From Gammaproteobacteria bacterium (GTDB lineage: Bacteria; Pseudomonadota; Gammaproteobacteria; SZUA-229): 64,000 bases of DNA. The stretch is taken from NCBI GenBank assembly GCA_026195895.1, contig JAPHRO010000024.1, positions 1 through 64,000 of the forward strand. Direction: 5' to 3'. Below are positions 13,574 to 49,054 of the stretch, one piece after another. Position 1 is the stretch's first letter. The number at the start of each line of letters is the position of its first letter. The position numbers and the translations under genes are program-made. The notes under the pieces were generated by a model. It saw only the letters and a list, made by a program, of their open reading frames with translations. It was not told the DNA's origin and made no database searches.

Positions 13574-14098
13574 TCAGGCTTTTTTCGCGCGACGTTTTTT
13601 ACGTTTCTTAGGTTTCATTGCTTTTTCAAGCTTGGCCATCTGTTGTTTAGTCCATTTTTCAACGAACTTGGCAACAGCCGCTTCTTTAGCAGCAGCCATC
13701 TTGATAATAGCCTGCTCACGTTTTGCAGCGGCCTGTAGCTCAGCTTTAGCTGCTTTTAGAGAAGCTTGCACCGCTGTCATTTTATCTTTCAGTGCTTTTT
13801 TCACTTCTGCTTGTCTGGCGGCTGCGGCTTTTTTCTTGGCTGCGGCTTCTTTTTTCTTGGCTGCGGCTATTTTGCGTTTAGCTGCTGCAGCTTTTTTCCT
13901 GGCTGCTGCGGCTTTCTTTTTAGCTGCTGCGGCTTTTTTCTTGGCTGCTGCGGCGGCTTTCTTTTTAGCTGCTGCGGCTTTTTTCTTAGCTGCTGCAGGA
14001 GCGATTTTTTTCTTAGCGACTACTTTTTTCTTAGTTGCTACTTTTCTTTTCTTGGTAGCAACTGCTTTTTTTGCTGCTTTTTTCTTAGGACGGGCCAT
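13574..14098 (-). CDS. Lys/Ala-rich histone H1-like (AlgP-like) protein
   Basis: The 174-residue protein is extremely rich in lysine and alanine. It starts MARPKKKAAKK, carries repeated AAAAKKK blocks over about residues 30-95, has a mixed Ala/Glu/Lys segment (about 95-150) that may be helical, and ends in a basic KPKKRKKRRAKKA tail. This resembles bacterial histone H1-like DNA-binding proteins such as AlgP and Hc1. A nucleoid role is inferred. The DNA is an internal repeat of 15-18 bp modules, so length may vary between strains. The long plus-strand frame over the same bases is only a mirror of this repeat. Confidence 0.8.
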   Translation of the reverse strand: MARPKKKAAKKAVATKKRKVATKKKVVAKKKIAPAAAKKKAAAAKKKAAAAAKKKAAAAKKKAAAARKKAAAAKRKIAAAKKKEAAAKKKAAAARQAEVKKALKDKMTAVQASLKAAKAELQAAAKREQAIIKMAAAKEAAVAKFVEKWTKQQMAKLEKAMKPKKRKKRRAKKA

Positions 14099-24450: not shown

Positions 24451-27150
24451 CTATCCGTATAGTAAATGATCGAGCCGGTTTTCAATATTGCGTTTGTATT
24501 TTAGAAAATGCACAAACTGAATATCTTCTCGATGTTCAACACCATACAGGCGCAATGGCACATCAAGATCCGTAATATAAACGGGCCGGCGACCTTCACC
24601 CCTCATACGGGCCGACAAATATTGCACGCATTCCGCCAGCACCTGATCACCGTATTCGCCATAATTGAATTCCCGGCCATCACAAATCAAATTGATCTGA
24701 TCCCCCTCTTCATGACCAACAACAGTCAGTTTTATTTCAATAAATCCCCGTTCTGCACTAATTGATTCTGCACCGATGGGATAAAACTCAAGCCCGCCTA
24801 ACTGATTAACTGAAATCTGCTGAATTTCTAATGATGGTAATTCGCGATTCTGGTAATTTATATTTTTTAATCGATTGCGAATATTGCGTATCACATACAG
24901 CCAATGCGCAACATAGGATTCTCGCTCAAACCACGGCTGTCTGTTTTTCCATAGCGAGCCTTTTTCATCCAGTACCCAGGTCGTGCAAGTGCGATGACTA
25001 AGCTGATAAAAAACCTGTACTACATTTTGTTTGTTTCTTTGAAAAATCTGCCGCAGGGGTGTTTCGGTTAATGCGAAACGCTCTAATGCATAGGGCTTGA
25101 ACTCTCTATTTGGCTGTTCCAGATAACGGTATAATGCTTTTTCATCGCCCATCCGTTGCTGCATCAGAACATCATCATTCGCTTCAACAAAATAGTAATC
25201 GGCTGCGAGCCGAACAATAAATCGACCGCTATACTGTTTCTTTATATAAAAGAATTCCACCAGTTCTTCATAGACCTGTTCTATGCGTTGCGCCAGAAAA
25301 GTGCTTTCACCTGCCGCATAGCCAAAGGCCTGCAACCCTGGTGGCTTAACTGAACTGGACAGAGGCGCATGATGAGTCCATTCACACAAACACTGTAGAA
25401 CGCCATCATTCCCACTATAGGATTGCGTATAAACATCACCCCAGCTATTCAGAATTAACTGTTCACAGTTTGTTGCCAGGTTCTCAGATTTATCTCCAAA
25501 ACTTAGAAAATCTATATCCCCCCCCATCAATTCCAGTTTTTTTCGGTGTTTTTCTTCCAGTAGTAAATTAACAAAAACTATTGACCGTAGGGGATGAACG
25601 GGATGATCAAACACATGCAGCGGAATCTGGCTAATCACATCCGGATTCATTTGCTGAATTAATATTTCCAGTACATGATGTGCCTCAATTTGCTTAACCT
25701 GTTTCATTGGGCAATCAACAGAAACCTGTGTCGAACTATCCACCAGTCGATTTAACCATGCCCAGGTAATCAGCGCCAACAGACTGCTAAAACCATGAAT
25801 AACTTTTTCTTCACCTTGTTCCAATTGCAGAACAAATGCCCACTGGCCATGGTTCCAGCCATCCATTTCATGTCGTATTAACACTCGCCCCTGCACCATT
25901 TCCTGGCGTGAACGCACATTATAAACTGGTACTCTAGACTCAGTATCGGATAGAAAAACCATCATGTTTCGAACAATACTGTTTAGATCTTCCTGCAATT
26001 CTTCAGCAGGAGACGTTTCATTATATTTGCTAACAATACGACTAAAAACCAGTCTGATTTCAGAAAACAATGCCTTGTTGATTTTAAGGTAAGCATGCAC
26101 ATCAAGTGGTTTCAATCTCAGTATTGACTGAGCACTTCCTTGCTGGGTAGACAACAGGTTTAAAAATGAATCAGATACATTTTTCACATACTGACGCAAT
26201 TGGTTAAACAATCGCATAACTGGCATCTGGTGTTCAGTATGATCGAGTTCTTTGACGGCTTGCAGAATTAGCTGCTGATAAATACGATCAGGATATGCAG
26301 CTTCTATATTTCTATCTGCGGAATATATCTGCAGTTTTAAGCGCCAGGCTGGGCCCTCAATTTCGGGCCAGTTTTTCTGCTTCACCAAAAGAAGCAATAA
26401 ATTGAGCCAGCTATTTTCTGGTTTCTGGTAAATTGAATGAATGCATTTAATAGCCTGTTTCAATACATCGTTTTGATTTGCCTGCGCCAGGCCACCAATA
26501 TCTATAAATTCTTTTTCATTTACAAACCGGGCTGATTTTATGTGCTGAACAAATTCAGTATATTTATCTTCTTTATCTGGCGGTACCAGCCACCAGACTG
26601 GATATTTACCCGCCAATAAAAAACTTTCCGCATAAAATGCATCTAAAAATATTCCTGATGAAACATACTCCGATGTTTCATCTACAAAGTCACAAACCCT
26701 GTCTGAACCAGTTAATTGTGCAGTTAGAATTAAATCTCGTGATTTTAGCCAGAGCAAAACACGCTGTAATTTGTCATTTAACTCCGTACACTGATCCGGC
26801 TTCAATCCAGGAATATGAATTAGCCATAATTTAAGCTGGCCATCAATAACATTACGCTGTATATAAATTGACTCGATTATTGTATTGCGTAGTGCTGTTT
26901 CCTGTTCATATTTGAACCGATTATTAAGCTGATTGGCTATATTTATCAGTGACTTTTCTGGTTTATACCCATAAATTCCGGCTGGGGTATCAGCCCCATT
27001 GAAACCGGGCAATAAACGATTGTTGATTTGAAATAGTAATGGGATCAACTGTAAAGCAGATTGCTGCGCTGACTCATATTGCTCATAAAAAAGCTCGAGA
27101 CACTTTTCGTTTCTTGATAAAAAAGCCTGTCGTGCGTCAGTAACTTCCAT
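24451..27150 (-). CDS. Class I adenylate cyclase homologue, probably catalytically inactive
   Basis: The 899-residue protein aligns by eye along its length with class I (enterobacterial-type) adenylate cyclase CyaA. Shared segments are LLPGFNGADTPAGIYGYKP (47-65), FLDAFYAESFLLAGKYPVWW followed by LVPPDKEDKY (168-197), FIDIGGLAQA, ITWAWLNRLVDSSTQV, and a distal DFLSFGD...NSWGDVYT region. At the site where E. coli CyaA has GSTSSVGQ...SSDLDIWVC, this protein reads IYIQRNVIDGQLKLWLIHI (96-113 region). The Gly-Ser pair and both catalytic Asp are therefore replaced, the Asp by Gln and Lys. The frame is intact and long, so this looks like a maintained pseudoenzyme, not a decaying gene. It lies three bases downstream of a double-receiver gene. 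Confidence 0.75.
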   Translation of the reverse strand: MEVTDARQAFLSRNEKCLELFYEQYESAQQSALQLIPLLFQINNRLLPGFNGADTPAGIYGYKPEKSLINIANQLNNRFKYEQETALRNTIIESIYIQRNVIDGQLKLWLIHIPGLKPDQCTELNDKLQRVLLWLKSRDLILTAQLTGSDRVCDFVDETSEYVSSGIFLDAFYAESFLLAGKYPVWWLVPPDKEDKYTEFVQHIKSARFVNEKEFIDIGGLAQANQNDVLKQAIKCIHSIYQKPENSWLNLLLLLVKQKNWPEIEGPAWRLKLQIYSADRNIEAAYPDRIYQQLILQAVKELDHTEHQMPVMRLFNQLRQYVKNVSDSFLNLLSTQQGSAQSILRLKPLDVHAYLKINKALFSEIRLVFSRIVSKYNETSPAEELQEDLNSIVRNMMVFLSDTESRVPVYNVRSRQEMVQGRVLIRHEMDGWNHGQWAFVLQLEQGEEKVIHGFSSLLALITWAWLNRLVDSSTQVSVDCPMKQVKQIEAHHVLEILIQQMNPDVISQIPLHVFDHPVHPLRSIVFVNLLLEEKHRKKLELMGGDIDFLSFGDKSENLATNCEQLILNSWGDVYTQSYSGNDGVLQCLCEWTHHAPLSSSVKPPGLQAFGYAAGESTFLAQRIEQVYEELVEFFYIKKQYSGRFIVRLAADYYFVEANDDVLMQQRMGDEKALYRYLEQPNREFKPYALERFALTETPLRQIFQRNKQNVVQVFYQLSHRTCTTWVLDEKGSLWKNRQPWFERESYVAHWLYVIRNIRNRLKNINYQNRELPSLEIQQISVNQLGGLEFYPIGAESISAERGFIEIKLTVVGHEEGDQINLICDGREFNYGEYGDQVLAECVQYLSARMRGEGRRPVYITDLDVPLRLYGVEHREDIQFVHFLKYKRNIENRLDHLLYG

Positions 27151-27153
27151 AAC

Positions 27154-27915
27154 TCAACTGACATCTCCAGTAAAATAATTATCAATTCGTTTCACAAAAT
27201 CTGCAACCTTAAACGGCTTGACAATATAGTCGTTAGCACCTGCACTCAACGAGCCTTTCACATCAGCAGCATCGGTACTTGCCGTCAACATGAGCACTGG
27301 TGTTCTTTGCCATATTTTTTTACTTCGTATATGTGACACCAGTTTTACTCCATTCATTCCTGGCAAACCAATATCCAGTAATACCAGTTTCGGAGGCACC
27401 ATCGAGTTTATTAAATTATAAGCCCGTAATCCGTCATCAGCGACTATCAGTTCCACCTGCTTTTTATAGAGCAACGACATGACCAACTGCCGAACAACCG
27501 GATCATCCTCTACCAGAAACACCGCTTTTTTATGTGCAAACAACATCAAATGCTTTATAAACTCCATACCATCGTAAGGCTTTACTGCAAAATCACTGGC
27601 CCCACTATGCCTGGCTTTTTCAATAGCAGATTTATTTTCAATACTACTAACCAGCATTATTATATAGGCACGATCACCTGATTTAGTCTGACGAATTCTG
27701 CGACATAATTCAAAACCATCACCATCATCAAGTTCACCGTCGATGACAATAAGATTTACCTCATCGACGCCGCTGGCATTGTCTTTTTCAGCAATAAAGG
27801 CCAATGCCTGCTCAGCGGTTTTTATTATATCGATACGATCAAATCCCTGTTCTCCAAATGCAGATCTTACCTGCATTTCTGAACCTGGTTTAGAATCGAT
27901 AATTAGTATGCTCAT
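27154..27915 (-). CDS. Response regulator with two receiver domains and no output domain
   Basis: The 253 residues are two REC domains in tandem. REC1 (about 2-128) has phosphoacceptor Asp59 (VIDGELDDGDG) and Lys112 (VKPYD), but its acidic pair is reduced to one Asp (IIDSKP). REC2 (about 131-250) has VEDDP at 135-139, Asp181 (LLDIGLPGMNG), Thr211 (MLTAS) and Lys233 (VKPFK). There is no DNA-binding or enzymatic output domain. It overlaps the upstream transporter gene by 4 bp and precedes the adenylate cyclase homologue by 3 bp, so a signalling partnership with the latter is likely. Confidence 0.88.
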   Translation of the reverse strand: MSILIIDSKPGSEMQVRSAFGEQGFDRIDIIKTAEQALAFIAEKDNASGVDEVNLIVIDGELDDGDGFELCRRIRQTKSGDRAYIIMLVSSIENKSAIEKARHSGASDFAVKPYDGMEFIKHLMLFAHKKAVFLVEDDPVVRQLVMSLLYKKQVELIVADDGLRAYNLINSMVPPKLVLLDIGLPGMNGVKLVSHIRSKKIWQRTPVLMLTASTDAADVKGSLSAGANDYIVKPFKVADFVKRIDNYFTGDVS

Positions 27916-29165
27916 GTTTTTGTATCCAATGCTGGCTCTTTAACATTTTTTAGCATCAGGCCACCAATCACAAATAAAATAATTATAGACAGAATCGAGA
28001 ATCGATGATTATTAGTTAATATTGCTACACCGCCCATGATTAACGGCCCGAGGATAGCCGCAGCCTTACCCATCATATTATAAACACCAAAATATTCTGC
28101 GGCCCGATCTTCAGGTATCAACCTGGCATAATATGAACGACTGAGCGCCTGCACACCACCCTGGACCAGGCCAATTAATATTGCCAGAATATAAAACTCT
28201 TCCACAGAGTCCATATAATATCCCCACAGGGTAATAAGAGCGTATATAAATATACCGGCTAACAGAGCCTTTTTAACACCTATTCTTCCGCCTATATGAG
28301 CATAAACAATCGCTGCAGGAAAGCCCACAAACTGGGTCAGCAATAATGCCAGTATCAAATCGTTAGCGGAAAACCCCAGCGCAAGACCATAATCAACAGC
28401 CATGCGGATAATAGTGTCTACGCCATCTATATAAATCCAGTAGGCCAATAGGAACAAGCGAATTTGCCTGTCTTTAAAAATATTTTTAAACGTTGTAATC
28501 GTCTCATGAAAAACACGACTGACAACTTGTTCAGTAGTGTTATCCAGTGCTCTGGACTCACTTACCCACAAACCTAAGGGTAAAGAAAAAATCAACCACC
28601 ACAAAGACACCAGCACAAATGAAAATATAACTGCATCTATAGATTCTGAAAAACCAAATATTGCGGGTTGCTGACTCATCAGCACACATAAAGCCAGTAA
28701 TATCCCGCCACCAAGATACCCCATACCAAAGCCCAGCCCTGATACTTTATCCACATTATGATTCTGACTAACATCAACTAACAATGCATCGTAAAAAATA
28801 TTTGCCCCCATGAAGGCAAACGAAGCCAGCACATAAAACATTAACACCAGCCACCAAAGGCCTGGACCAATGGTATAAAACATATATGTCGTAACAACGC
28901 CCAGAGACATAAACAACAGGAGCAGGCGTTTTCGCAAGCCGCGGCAATCAGCAATTGCACCGAGCACCGGCGCCAGCAATACAATCATCAAACTGGAAGT
29001 GGAATTTGCGGCACCTAACCAGAAAGTACTTTCTTCAGAACTCAGGCCTGAGGCCCAGTATTGTTTGAAAACAACAGGAAATAATCCGGCGATAACGACC
29101 GTAGCAAAAACTGAATTGGCCCAGTCATACAGTGCCCAGCTCCAGACTTGTTTATCCTTCAGCAC
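27912..29165 (-). CDS. UMF1/Atg22-like MFS transporter
   Basis: The 417-residue protein has about 12 membrane segments. The N-terminus WSWALYDWANSVFATVVIAGLFPVVF and the GAIADCRGLRKR loop are typical of the UMF1 (Atg22-like) branch of the major facilitator superfamily. Another family segment is GGVQALSRSYYARLIPEDRAAEYFG. The substrate is unknown. It is the first gene of the transporter-receiver-cyclase homologue operon, sharing a 4-bp overlap with the receiver gene. Confidence 0.85.
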   Translation of the reverse strand: MLKDKQVWSWALYDWANSVFATVVIAGLFPVVFKQYWASGLSSEESTFWLGAANSTSSLMIVLLAPVLGAIADCRGLRKRLLLLFMSLGVVTTYMFYTIGPGLWWLVLMFYVLASFAFMGANIFYDALLVDVSQNHNVDKVSGLGFGMGYLGGGILLALCVLMSQQPAIFGFSESIDAVIFSFVLVSLWWLIFSLPLGLWVSESRALDNTTEQVVSRVFHETITTFKNIFKDRQIRLFLLAYWIYIDGVDTIIRMAVDYGLALGFSANDLILALLLTQFVGFPAAIVYAHIGGRIGVKKALLAGIFIYALITLWGYYMDSVEEFYILAILIGLVQGGVQALSRSYYARLIPEDRAAEYFGVYNMMGKAAAILGPLIMGGVAILTNNHRFSILSIIILFVIGGLMLKNVKEPALDTKT

Positions 29166-44172: not shown

Positions 44173-44589
44173 TCTGTCACCTATATAAGCAATTCATTAA
44201 ATACGAGATTCTATTATGAATAGATCAAAAAACAAAACAATTTATAGATCATATTAATATTAAAATATACCGATATACCGGCCGTCCGAATATCGCACGC
44301 CCATCAAATTGGCTAAAACGTAACTAATTAATCTTTAATTTTCAAATACTTGGAGATGCTTTCCGAAGCCTGCCACAGATAATCTTTTCGCCTGTAAATA
44401 ACAGCCATATAAAAATATTTTCACCATAACACTTGCCTTTTATTCGTATTAAAAGGTAAGGTTTAAGCTTAAAAATCATACAATCGACTAATTTTTTAAT
44501 TTACAGGTTTTTTGGGTCAGCAACAGGCACCTGACTGCATCAGCAAAAACGCCCGCTACCCCACATATTAATTCTTGAGGAGACAACAA
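44173..44589. other. 417-bp divergent intergenic region, rhodanese/dsrE-like
   Basis: AT-rich region with divergent promoters expected. A 10-bp inverted repeat with one G-U pair, CTTGCCTTTT (44432-44441) and AAAAGGTAAG (44451-44460), lies about 130 bp before the DsrE-like start. No gene or T-run terminator is seen. Confidence 0.5.
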
Positions 44590-45105
44590 ATGAGTGACAA
44601 TCGCAAGCTGACCATTATTGCAACCAAGGGCACCCTGGACTGGGCCTACCCACCGTTCATTCTGGCTAGCACCGCTGCAGCGCTGGGAATGGAATGCTCA
44701 GTTTTTTACACTTTCTATGGCCTGAATCTATTATTGAAAGACACCAGCAGCCTGAGAGTTACGCCGACTGGTAATCCTTCTATGCCAATGAAAATGCCTA
44801 TGGGACCTAAATGGCTAAAAGCTATCGATTTTGGCCCTAAAATTCCCAACATCATGTGGAATGTTCCTTTCATGGACAGCATCGCTACCACATTAATGAA
44901 GAAAACCATCTCTAATTGTGGTGTGGCTACAATTGATGAGTTACGTGAGCTGTGTCAGGAAGCCGAAGTAAAATTCCTCGCCTGCCAGATGACAGTTGAA
45001 CTTTTTGGTTATGATCACTCTCAATTTATTGATGGTGTTGACTATGTAGGTGCAGCCACTTACTTTGAAGAATCGTCAGACGCAACACAGTCACTGTTTA
45101 TCTAA
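44590..45105 (+). CDS. DsrE2-like sulfur-transfer protein
   Basis: The 171-residue protein resembles the DsrE/DsrF family, DsrE2 branch: IIATKGTLDWAYPPFILASTAAALGMECSVFYTFYGLNLL at the start, and KFLACQMTVELFGYD with Cys132, which aligns with the sulfur-binding Cys of the family; Cys110 is a second candidate. DsrE2-type proteins work with rhodanese and TusA in cytoplasmic sulfur trafficking of sulfur oxidisers. The start at 44590 follows GAGGAG by seven bases; a TTG 15 bp upstream is rejected. Confidence 0.85.
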   Translation: MSDNRKLTIIATKGTLDWAYPPFILASTAAALGMECSVFYTFYGLNLLLKDTSSLRVTPTGNPSMPMKMPMGPKWLKAIDFGPKIPNIMWNVPFMDSIATTLMKKTISNCGVATIDELRELCQEAEVKFLACQMTVELFGYDHSQFIDGVDYVGAATYFEESSDATQSLFI

Positions 45106-45130
45106 CAACAATAGATAATCAACCTAGATT

Positions 45131-45166
45131 AAAGGCTGCACTTTAAAACTGTGTAGCCTTTTTTTA
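45131..45166 (+). terminator. Rho-independent terminator of the DsrE2-like gene
   Basis: AAGGCTGCAC-tttaaaact-GTGTAGCCTT at 45132-45160, followed by a T run to 45165. Confidence 0.88.
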
Positions 45167-45239
45167 TGGCTGTGTATTATTTAATTAACCCCACTCAAAA
45201 CCCATGACTCAAATTTTAAGATACAATATCTGATACAAA

Positions 45240-46649
45240 ATGCGCTTCTTTCCTTCCAGCTTACTATCCCTGTTTTTGATGCTATCGCCATATCAGGTCA
45301 GCGGGGAACTCCCTGATTTAGGTGACCCAACCCAGTTAACTGTTTCGCCTCATCAGGAATATATGATGGGTAAAAGTTTTTTCCAGACCCTTAAAGCGAA
45401 TGTACCTTTTGTGGACACCCTGGAAGTTAACGATTATCTAAATACTCTGGGCCAGAAACTGGTATCTCAAAGTGACCAGCCCGACCAGAACTTCAAGTTT
45501 TTCATACTTAAAATACCCAGCATAAATGCATTTGCAGGGCCTGATGCACATATCGGCATACATTCTGGACTGATTTTAGCGGCTGACAATGAAAGTGAAC
45601 TGGCCGGCGTACTGGCACATGAAATATCTCATGTTACCCAGCGACATTTGGCGCGCGCGCAATCGGAAGGCACATCGCCGGCAGCAATTTTTGCGGCTAT
45701 TCTGGCAGGAATACTGGTTGGCGCTGAAAATCCTGATGCTGGTGCCGCGATCATCTATGGTGGCACCGCAGCCATGATGCAATCACAGATCAACTTTACC
45801 CGTCACAACGAATATGAAGCAGACCGCGTCGGCATCTCGATTTTAAGAAAAGCCAATATAAACCCGGATGGTATGGCTCAATTCTTTGAAACTTTACTGG
45901 AAAACACTGATTCCAATAATATTCTGTCGCAAATGGAATACCTGCGCACTCATCCACTTAGTACCACTCGCATCGCTGAAGCCAGGCATCGCATATCTGA
46001 TAAAGATGCTAATTTGCCTAAAGACAGTCTGAATTTTCAATTAACCAAAGCACAGGTAGTGATTTCTGCAAGTACGTCTTTACCGGCACAAATTAAAAAA
46101 CTGAAATCATTGCCTGCAGATAAAAAAAATATTGTCACTCGCTACATGCTTGCTATTGCCTTGACTGCCGATGATAAAGCCAGTGAAGCCATAGAAATAT
46201 TACTGCCTTTAATCGAAGAGCATGAACATCCCTGGTTCCAGTTAGCCCTTGCCAAAGCCTATATCCAGGCAAATAAACAGGAACAAGCACTGGAGATATT
46301 AAGAGTACTTGAAAAGCTGTATCCAAATTACCTTCCGGTAACTATCTATTATGTAGAAATGCTCAATCATTTTGGCCAGTATGATGAAGCAATCAAACTG
46401 TTAAAACGCTTATTGCAGTACCAGAAACAAACTATTATTTACAAAACTTTGGCCCAGTCCTATTTTTCAAATGGACAGACAGGTGCAGCACTTGAAGCCA
46501 CCAGTTATCAATATGAACTGGATGGCTACATTAAGCTGGCGGCACAGCAAATAGAAAATGCCTTAAAACAGCCTGATTTAAACCCGATCACCATACAAAG
46601 ACTGGAAAGCAGGAAAAAAGAACTCACCTCCCAGATGTCGCAAAAATAA
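45240..46649 (+). CDS. bepA: BepA-type periplasmic M48 metalloprotease with TPR
   Basis: BepA (YfgC) is a periplasmic zinc protease and chaperone for outer-membrane and LPS assembly. The 469-residue precursor has a signal peptide (about 1-22), the M48 domain with HEISH (His127, Glu128, His131) and the third ligand in NEYEADRVG near 197, and a C-terminal TPR region (about 290-450). Length fits E. coli BepA (487). It is co-oriented with soxX but 293 bp away. Confidence 0.9.
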   Translation: MRFFPSSLLSLFLMLSPYQVSGELPDLGDPTQLTVSPHQEYMMGKSFFQTLKANVPFVDTLEVNDYLNTLGQKLVSQSDQPDQNFKFFILKIPSINAFAGPDAHIGIHSGLILAADNESELAGVLAHEISHVTQRHLARAQSEGTSPAAIFAAILAGILVGAENPDAGAAIIYGGTAAMMQSQINFTRHNEYEADRVGISILRKANINPDGMAQFFETLLENTDSNNILSQMEYLRTHPLSTTRIAEARHRISDKDANLPKDSLNFQLTKAQVVISASTSLPAQIKKLKSLPADKKNIVTRYMLAIALTADDKASEAIEILLPLIEEHEHPWFQLALAKAYIQANKQEQALEILRVLEKLYPNYLPVTIYYVEMLNHFGQYDEAIKLLKRLLQYQKQTIIYKTLAQSYFSNGQTGAALEATSYQYELDGYIKLAAQQIENALKQPDLNPITIQRLESRKKELTSQMSQK

Positions 46650-46663
46650 GACATGAAGCTATA

Positions 46664-46683
46664 TTAATATTTTCTAATATTAA
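46664..46683. repeat. AT-rich hairpin after bepA
   Basis: TTAATATT-TTCT-AATATTAA is a perfect 8-bp inverted repeat 15 bp past the bepA stop. It has no T run, so terminator function is uncertain. Confidence 0.4.
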
Positions 46684-46822
46684 GTGAAGGTAACATATTG
46701 AAACAGCTCAAATTTTTCTTGCCATACGCTTTCCATGGAGTATGCTATATGCGTTGATCTGATATATATAAAAACAATAAGCTAGTACATCCATTAAAAG
46801 TAATCCCGGTTTAACAAGGTAA

Positions 46823-46844
46823 ACATCATTTTTAAAAATGATGT
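46823..46844. promoter_or_regulatory. Perfect 22-bp palindrome upstream of soxX
   Basis: ACATCATTTTT joined directly to AAAAATGATGT is self-complementary. It lies about 100 bp before the soxX start, where a regulator-binding site or promoter overlap is expected. As RNA it would leave almost no loop, so a DNA operator is more likely than a terminator. Confidence 0.5.
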
Positions 46845-46942
46845 ACTTTATAAATGGCAGTAAAGATGGAAAAATATAATCTGAGTACTATCTATAGTGA
46901 TCAGCTTTACTAACCCCACGTAAAATGTTTGAGGAGTGAATT

Positions 46943-47317
46943 ATGCGGCACACCGCAAAAGCCATATCTACAGTGACCTCGATCGCTGCACTTCTGGGCA
47001 GCTTTGCCTTATCAATACCCGTAGTATCCAATGCAGCAGAAGCTGATGATATTGCGCAGGGCAAAAAAATTGCCTTTGATAGGAAAAAAGGTAACTGCCT
47101 GGCCTGTCACTATATCGAAGGTGGCGCTCTACCTGGTAATATAGGTCCGCCACTTATTGCAATGAAAGGCCGGTTCCCGGACAAGAGTATATTACGAGCC
47201 CAGATCTGGGACTCTCGTGTTAGCAATCCTAATACCCTCATGCCTCCTTTTGGCCCACACGAAGTGATGTCAAAAAGTGAAATTGATCAGGTTGTTGAGT
47301 TTATTTACTCGTTATAA
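46943..47317 (+). CDS. soxX: SoxX, monohaem cytochrome c of the SoxXA complex
   Basis: SoxX accepts electrons when SoxXA attaches thiosulfate to SoxY. The 124-residue precursor has a signal peptide ending about SNA-AE (31), one haem motif CLACH (Cys52, Cys55, His56), and the distal Met ligand in LMPPFG. It heads soxXYZA, preceded by a strong GAGGAG site. Confidence 0.93.
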   Translation: MRHTAKAISTVTSIAALLGSFALSIPVVSNAAEADDIAQGKKIAFDRKKGNCLACHYIEGGALPGNIGPPLIAMKGRFPDKSILRAQIWDSRVSNPNTLMPPFGPHEVMSKSEIDQVVEFIYSL

Positions 47318-47340
47318 AAAATTCTCAAGGTAAAGATACA

Positions 47341-47808
47341 ATGAATACAAAACGTAGAACATTTTTGAAAAGCACTGCTGCTGTCGGCGCGGTAGGCGTT
47401 GCGGTAAGTGCTGGCTTATTAACTCCTCGTGCAGTTTTTGCCGCATGGCCTAAAGCCGCATTTGAGGCGACCAGTCTGGACAGCGCGATTACAGCCGCAC
47501 ATGGCGGATCCGCTGCTGCTAGTGGCGACATCAAGCTGAAAGCGCCAGACATTGCTGAAAACGGTGCCGTAGTACCGATTACTGTAACCAGCAAAATCGC
47601 CGGAACTGAATCAATCAGCATTCTAGTTTCCAATAACCCGACTCCTCTTACGGGCACTTTTAACCTGGGCTCCAATACTGAAGGTTTTGTCTCTAGTCGT
47701 GTAAAAATGAGCAAAACATCTGACGTGGTTGTTGTTGTTAAAGCAGGCGGCAAGCTATACAGCGCCAAGAAAGAAGTCAAAGTAACAATCGGCGGCTGTG
47801 GCGGCTAA
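47341..47808 (+). CDS. soxY: SoxY, sulfur-carrier subunit
   Basis: SoxY carries the thiosulfate-derived sulfane on its C-terminal Cys. The 155-residue precursor has a Tat signal (KRRTFLKS) and the swinging-arm end GGCGG with Cys153. It starts 23 bp after soxX. Confidence 0.95.
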   Translation: MNTKRRTFLKSTAAVGAVGVAVSAGLLTPRAVFAAWPKAAFEATSLDSAITAAHGGSAAASGDIKLKAPDIAENGAVVPITVTSKIAGTESISILVSNNPTPLTGTFNLGSNTEGFVSSRVKMSKTSDVVVVVKAGGKLYSAKKEVKVTIGGCGG

Positions 47809-47844
47809 TCCCAATCTTTGGGCAAGAATTAGAGGAATCAAATA

Positions 47845-48159
47845 ATGGCTAAATCAATTAAAGTACGCGCTAAAGTAAAAGGTGGAGTGACTGTTGTTAA
47901 AACATTAATCAGTCATCCAATGGAAACAGGTCTGCGCAAAAACAAGAAGACCGGGCAAAAAATTCCTGCTGAATTTATTCAGGAAGTAACCTGCGAACAC
48001 AATGGCAACAATGTGCTATCGGCACTTTGGGGTACAGCGATTTCAAAAAATCCTTACCTGTCATTTAAATTCAAAGGTGCCAAATCTGGCGATACCCTTA
48101 AAGTAAGCTGGGTAGATAACAAAGGCAAAAGCGATTCTGTTGAAGCAAAAATTAAATAA
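47845..48159 (+). CDS. soxZ: SoxZ, SoxY-partner protein
   Basis: A 104-residue immunoglobulin-like protein without signal peptide, with family segments ISHPMETGLRKNKKTGQKIPAEF (split: ISHPMETG, KTGQKIPAEFI), VTCEHNGN and FKFKGAKSGDTLKVSWVDNKG. It is co-exported with SoxY. Confidence 0.95.
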   Translation: MAKSIKVRAKVKGGVTVVKTLISHPMETGLRKNKKTGQKIPAEFIQEVTCEHNGNNVLSALWGTAISKNPYLSFKFKGAKSGDTLKVSWVDNKGKSDSVEAKIK

Positions 48160-48196
48160 TCGCACTCCCTGGCAGAAATCAATAAAGGTACTAACC

Positions 48197-49054
48197 ATGA
48201 AAAAAATCGCAGTCATTGCTTCCGCGTTTTGCATGCTTCTTACGCCATTAGTAAGTTCAGCAGCAAATCCGGCACAAGATCTGAAAGACTTTAGAAAACA
48301 TTACACCGAGATGTTCCCAGAAATCCCCCTGCATGATTTCGTGAATGGCGTTTATTCCGTTGATAAAGACTCCCGTGAACAATGGGAAGCATTTGAGGAA
48401 TTTCCCCCCTACGAAACCTATGTTGAAAAAGGTGAAGAACTGTTTAACAAACCATTTAAGAATGGCAAAACCTATGCAAGCTGCTTTCCAAAAGCAGAAC
48501 AGGGCATAAAACAGAACTACCCCTACTTCGATAAGAATCGAGGTGAAGTTGTGACTCTGGAGCTAGCCATCAACGAATGTCGTGAAGCTAATGGCGAAAA
48601 ACCGCTGAAATATAAAAAGGGCGCCATTGCTCATCTGTCAGCTTATATCGCCTATAAGTCTCGTGGTAAAAAAGGCAACGTGAAAATCGATAGCAGTCCA
48701 GAATCTATGCAATGGTATGCGCGCGGCAAGAAACATTTCTATGCCAAACGCGGCCAGTTGAATATGTCCTGCGCTGATTGCCATTACCACAATCCTGGTA
48801 AAAAAATCCGTGCTGACATTCTGAGTCCTGCCCTGGGTCATACCTCCCACTTCCCTGTGTTCCGTAACAAGTGGTCACAGTCAAGCAAATCAGGTGATGG
48901 TATGGGTACGCTGCAACGTCGCTACGGCGGCTGTAACAGTCAGGTGCGCGCCAAGCCATTTAAAGCTCAAAGTAAAGAGTATCGTGCTCTGGAGTATTTC
49001 CATACCTACATGAGCAATGGCCTGACTATGAATGGCCCAGGTATACGTAAATAA
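48197..49054 (+). CDS. soxA: SoxA, cytochrome c subunit of SoxXA
   Basis: SoxA is the L-cysteine S-thiosulfotransferase subunit. The 285-residue precursor has a signal peptide (about 1-22), a single haem motif CADCH (Cys192, Cys195, His196) and the active-site Cys246 in GGCNSQVRAKPF. Cys96 and Cys128 stand where the N-terminal haem of dihaem SoxA would be, so this is the monohaem type with a probable disulfide. The start at 48197 follows AAAGG and the signal peptide; a longer frame begins at 48140 inside soxZ but is rejected. No soxB, soxC or soxD follows. Confidence 0.93.
   Translation: MKKIAVIASAFCMLLTPLVSSAANPAQDLKDFRKHYTEMFPEIPLHDFVNGVYSVDKDSREQWEAFEEFPPYETYVEKGEELFNKPFKNGKTYASCFPKAEQGIKQNYPYFDKNRGEVVTLELAINECREANGEKPLKYKKGAIAHLSAYIAYKSRGKKGNVKIDSSPESMQWYARGKKHFYAKRGQLNMSCADCHYHNPGKKIRADILSPALGHTSHFPVFRNKWSQSSKSGDGMGTLQRRYGGCNSQVRAKPFKAQSKEYRALEYFHTYMSNGLTMNGPGIRK

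Follow-up and report, generated by a model that had tools for sequence, protein, structure and literature searches.

A maintained class I adenylate cyclase homologue without catalytic residues, encoded beside a two-receiver protein in a gammaproteobacterium

Genes of the locus

The window (the whole 64,000-nucleotide stretch of DNA analysed) carries three closely packed leftwards-transcribed genes. The first gene of this apparent operon codes for a predicted MFS/ATG22-like transporter (27912..29165, (-)) and has a 4-nt overlap with the gene for a 253 aa protein that has two receiver domains and no output domain (27154..27915, (-); two Response_reg domains, 1.4e-41). The third gene (24451..27150, (-)), identified by ORF calling and profile searches, codes for an 899 aa protein with class I adenylate cyclase homology over its whole length. 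Exactly three bases separate the stop of the two-REC gene from the start of the cyclase homologue (...TGA GTT ATG), and the ORFs, the Response_reg matches and the junction all agree with an earlier sequence-only reading of this DNA, which gave no strand and had placed a two-REC protein lacking an output domain three bases upstream of a cyclase-like gene. Inspection by eye of the window's listed ORF starts showed no recognisable histidine kinase near the operon, and in a promoter and terminator scan the site count was not above that of shuffled sequences. Elsewhere in the window there is a stretch that, going by the protein starts, resembles sulfur-oxidation (sox/dsrE-like) genes (44575-49054) and would suggest a sulfur oxidiser, and a 174 aa lysine/alanine-rich protein with a histone H1-like composition (13574-14098, (-)).

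Both Pfam class I cyclase domains are present in the 899 aa protein (PF12633, 5.8e-22; PF01295, 1.1e-22) and score above their curated cut-offs (79.1 and 80.8 bits vs 27). The NCBIfam class I adenylate cyclase model matches residues 4-896 (1.3e-124) and E. coli CyaA matches by BLASTP at 2e-22. These matches support the intact 899-codon frame with CyaA-wide similarity reported in the sequence-only reading, and the profile search that it called for places the protein above the Pfam cut-offs and below the NCBIfam equivalog cut-off (best 417.6 bits vs 1300). It is the one class I homologue of its source genome, for which completeness is estimated at 99%; a first-pass single-sequence scan of the genome contigs gave no match. 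The protein resembles E. coli-type CyaA (PF12633 + PF01295) in full-length homology, domain order and modelled fold, and in keeping the structural residues P39, G51, G60, W118, K136, G195, W200 and K286. It differs in lacking equivalents of GS, DxD, E150, E185, R188 and D300, in a six-residue loop deletion, in falling far under the equivalog cut-off, in an inverted conservation profile (see below), and in the lack of EIIA-Glc in the genome.

The second receiver domain of the two-REC protein is canonical, with E136, D137 and D138, D181, T211 and K233 invariant across orthologues, as expected of an output-less response regulator. REC1 fits that description in part, since D7-S8 stands where the acidic pair would be and, in one orthologue, the acceptor D59 is replaced by Asn.

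Loss of the active site and shift of constraint

The Gly-Ser pair, the Asp pair and D300 of E. coli CyaA are catalytic according to mutagenesis and pol-beta-type modelling. The corresponding region of the window protein (residues 92-175; 26626..26877, (-)) is degenerate. Alignment with CyaA and other class I enzymes shows that G102, S103, S113, D114, D116, E150, E185, R188 and D300 (E. coli numbering) are all replaced (G102 by R, S103 by N, D114 by Q and D116 by K), and that the catalytic loop has lost six residues between the positions of GS and DxD. The alignment thus confirms the claim that Gly-Ser and both Asp are lost, with Gln and Lys in place of the latter, and adds the deletion. Intact GS and DxD residues elsewhere in the domain, which would have counted against that claim, were looked for and not found: GS pairs occur in the 899 aa protein only at 148, 338 and 731 with no DxD after them, ruling out relocation of the motif within the protein. 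The residues expected to hold the triphosphate and the metal are gone, and there is no conserved replacement acidic pair near the pocket across the clade of orthologues described below.

All nine full-length clade members have lost the equivalents of G102, S113, D116, R188, W249, K260, Y271 and D300, and eight of the nine have lost S103, D114, E150 and E185; the one match at each of these four positions may reflect chance or retention, and no member has GS or DxD. The equivalents of W118, K136, G195, W200 and K286 are kept in all nine, and the AGKYPVWWLVPP block in all pseudo-cyclase members. Conservation reaches 90% or more across 106 canonical sequences at 62 N-domain positions. The clade keeps 26 of these, mainly structural residues (P, G, W, N, K, F and Y), and loses 21, among them the majority of those catalytic-loop positions at which real enzymes show 100% conservation.

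The predicted structure (AlphaFold2, using an alignment of homologous loci; pLDDT 84, pTM 0.75) retains the nucleotidyltransferase core. In the model, strands 92-99 and 106-112 are joined by a short turn, whereas in a canonical control model the loop from strand 104-110 to strand 123-130 is 12 residues long; the structure prediction proposed in the sequence-only reading gives a kept core with its catalytic loop reduced to a turn. The closest solved folds for the N-terminal half of the model in Foldseek are the AadA/ANT(9) nucleotidyltransferases (prob 0.91-0.99), as they are for the canonical control, with a weaker E-value for the pseudo-cyclase (6.6e-3 vs 5.6e-5). Unlike the protein modelled here, AadA and ANT(9) are active adenylyltransferases, and neither single-sequence nor profile searches of the PDB found any sequence relative of the pseudo-cyclase; the PDB copy that was searched yielded no class I adenylate cyclase chain. 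Repeated three-strand/helix units are seen in the C-terminal half (residues about 420-899) of the dead and the canonical model alike, and both models have weak Foldseek matches to actin-like proteins (PPX-type phosphatases, BT_3980 and MreB).

For the two closest ortholog pairs a simple counting method gives dN 0.17/dS 1.57 and dN 0.19/dS 1.84 (dN/dS about 0.11 and 0.10), with dS high and not saturated, and no frame is broken among full-length and partial orthologues. A pseudogene or sequencing error is ruled out, as the same state is common to independent assemblies. With intact frames, dN/dS of about 0.11, an active site lost alike in all orthologues and a fold preserved in the model, the maintained pseudoenzyme of the sequence-only reading holds up, and the orthologue comparison that it suggested shows purifying selection in place of random decay. 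There is thus a strong case, from comparison of sequences, that the 899 aa protein is a maintained class I pseudo-cyclase, in that its catalytic residues are lost and the gene is under purifying selection.

The distribution of constraint has also changed. In pairs of canonical cyclases at 30-50% identity, identity in the N part (the first 280 residues) exceeds that in the C part by 0.153 on average and in 442 of 442 pairs, whereas in the pseudo-cyclase clade the mean difference is -0.057 and is positive in 24% of 29 pairs, figures that describe a pattern and are not a test because the pairs are not independent. Conservation is among the lowest of the protein in residues 92-175 (mean pairwise identity 0.28 in the clade vs 0.55 in canonical enzymes), and the C-terminal region (residues 601-899; 24451..25350, (-)) is more tightly constrained than its counterpart in real class I cyclases (0.46 vs 0.34, at similar overall divergence). 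A shift of conservation from the N to the C half is what one would expect if catalysis was lost and the C-terminal role was retained or became stronger, and we consider it likely, because constraint has moved toward that half, that a non-catalytic role is borne mainly there.

Distribution, neighbours and cAMP signalling

Orthologues of the pseudo-cyclase are present in 10 of the 54 genomes of this family of uncultured gammaproteobacteria, from 5 of its 14 genera, at 41-48% identity to the window protein (a search by order gave the identical 54 genomes). All share the loop deletion and lack DxD, and all frames are open. A copy was not detected in the other 44 genomes, so the gene is dispensable at the family scale. 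No intact class I cyclase was found in the family, ruling out a second intact enzyme that the pseudo-cyclase might modulate. In a tree the nine full-length orthologues form a single clade (support 100/99), which is adjoined by long-branched second copies. These more diverged, fast-evolving class I homologues are found in two genomes (G023, L033:8113-10716; G009, L034:1-2250) away from the valS-prfC locus; the G023 copy has a likewise degenerate motif and in G009 the contig stops short of the motif.

The two-REC gene is present in six of the ten pseudo-cyclase genomes (three of five genera), always adjoining the pseudo-cyclase gene with 3-17 nt gaps or 11-nt overlaps and nowhere else in the 54 genomes. 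A receiver orthologue was not detectable in the other four carriers (G002, G014, G005 and G033; three genera), so the pairing is not obligate, and the conserved REC-cyclase linkage that the sequence-only reading proposed to look for is not universal. The MFS gene adjoins the pseudo-cyclase or its two-REC gene in all ten carriers. The arrangement MFS-(two-REC)-pseudo-cyclase is operon-like, its genes overlapping or standing mostly a short distance apart. The locus sits between valS and prfC in carriers whose contigs extend that far; however, the other genes there (pepA-holC-valS ... prfC) are conserved too, and synteny alone says little. An MFS relative occurs without the pseudo-cyclase in two other genera, elsewhere in the chromosome and among other genes, which weakens the idea of a strict MFS/pseudo-cyclase pair.

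The source genome has kept a true CRP, and it encodes four class III cyclases that carry the Asp pair for metal binding, so that cAMP signalling probably continues although class I catalysis is gone. It encodes no PF00358 (EIIA-Glc) protein, so the EIIA-Glc regulation of enterobacterial-type class I cyclases does not apply here; such regulation is not common to all class I cyclases. CRP is present in 40 of the 54 family genomes and does not track the pseudo-cyclase, and its co-occurrence is uninformative as a clue to function.

Possible roles of the pseudo-cyclase

We think it rather probable that a class I cyclase lost its chemistry in an ancestor of the family's carriers and has since been retained for non-catalytic signalling. 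Class III cyclases would now supply cAMP to CRP, and the class I protein would owe its survival to whatever its C-terminal regulatory half still binds. In the most likely working model the operon, with its MFS gene in every carrier and the two-REC protein in three of five genera, would provide a protein-protein switch. A histidine kinase encoded elsewhere would phosphorylate REC2, and docking of the receiver on the pseudo-cyclase would alter the binding of the C-terminal half. Candidate targets of that half are the cytosolic face of the transporter, a class III cyclase, or another partner, and where the receiver is absent the pseudo-cyclase would be driven by another input. More tentatively, the switch may be controlled by a phosphorelay and act through the formerly regulatory C-terminal half, with class III enzymes having taken over cAMP synthesis and similar losses having occurred independently in other families.

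A stronger version of receiver control, in which the pseudo-cyclase serves mainly as output module to the two-REC protein, whose phosphorylated receivers control it directly, is close to what the sequence-only reading proposed. The gene linkage on which it draws stands, as the receiver gene lies immediately upstream of the pseudo-cyclase in 6 of 54 genomes and never occurs without it, every REC2 phosphorylation residue is invariant, and there is a precedent in Pseudomonas, where a passage of PMC10519157 (citing Fulcher 2010) places PilG, a stand-alone Chp-system response regulator, upstream of the class III cyclase CyaB. PilG-CyaB likewise links an output-less receiver protein to a cyclase-family protein; however, CyaB is an active class III enzyme, and here the class I protein is dead and the link is genomic only. 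With four of ten carriers having the pseudo-cyclase and no detectable receiver, and with REC1 missing its second N-terminal acid and, in one orthologue, its acceptor Asp, we regard this version as doubtful. Receiver control cannot be the general mechanism for the pseudo-cyclase, and a facultative form, possible in lineages that have the receiver, is plausible.

The shift of constraint bears on the other explanations. A nucleotide sensor, with the NTase pocket binding ATP or cAMP without catalysis and the C-terminal half reading it out, would fit the confidently modelled NTase core and the AGKYPVWWLVPP block and W118/K136 equivalents kept in all members; however, it seems unlikely given that GS, the two Asp and further pocket residues of full conservation are lost, and given an identity in residues 92-175 (0.28, against 0.55 in canonical enzymes) unlike that of a pocket selected for a ligand. 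Some pseudoenzymes do prove active, as an excerpt of PMC10211241 describes, and purifying selection on all 899 aa could be taken to point to a different catalytic activity, arising from relocated residues or completed by residues of another protein. Such an activity is very improbable here, where neither a conserved acidic pair near the pocket nor GS...DxD elsewhere is present and constraint has left the catalytic region. Least credible is a relic slowly decaying after class III cyclases took over: most family genomes do lack a copy, and a remnant with stops is present in another family (f3, G414), but the full-length orthologues are all intact at 41-48% identity to the window protein, with dS near saturation, dN/dS is about 0.11 in the closest pairs, and the C-terminal end is more conserved than in active enzymes.

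The non-catalytic reading that we prefer has a parallel in degenerate GGDEF/EAL proteins, which serve as effectors according to work cited in PMC6416229; these too have lost catalytic residues while fold and gene are kept in a signalling context, although the fold and messenger differ from those of the pseudo-cyclase. We found no description of a class I pseudo-cyclase in the papers searched, and the comparisons point to a signalling protein without catalysis, of a type for which those papers gave no description. Class I cyclases are textbook enzymes with a large and poorly understood C-terminal half. A clade that has discarded the chemistry and tightened C-terminal constraint isolates the function of that half, suggesting that it does something selectable alone and offering a direct route to its binding target.

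In a class-wide sample a homologue is present in 109 of 369 genomes. About 106 homologues from outside the family keep GS...DxD, the exceptions among those examined being in G141 and G212, whose motifs are lost in different ways from each other. The tree places both apart from the pseudo-cyclase clade, and they seem to have lost the motif separately; because their branches are long, their position in the tree is tentative, as is any precise count of losses. The G141 protein (L203:1903-4602; LGSTGELIRPRDASFRLL), unrelated to the family clade, keeps GS and has lost DxD, and its gene lies 42 bases downstream of that for a PAS-GGDEF protein (L203:4645-5496) whose GGDEF signature (RDSDNRF) looks degenerate. 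The G212 gene (L204:7504-10125; LINPNGLLSYPERPRFELW) is flanked by purH-like and argC-like genes, and in the related genome G414 the class I cyclase is a mere remnant with stops.
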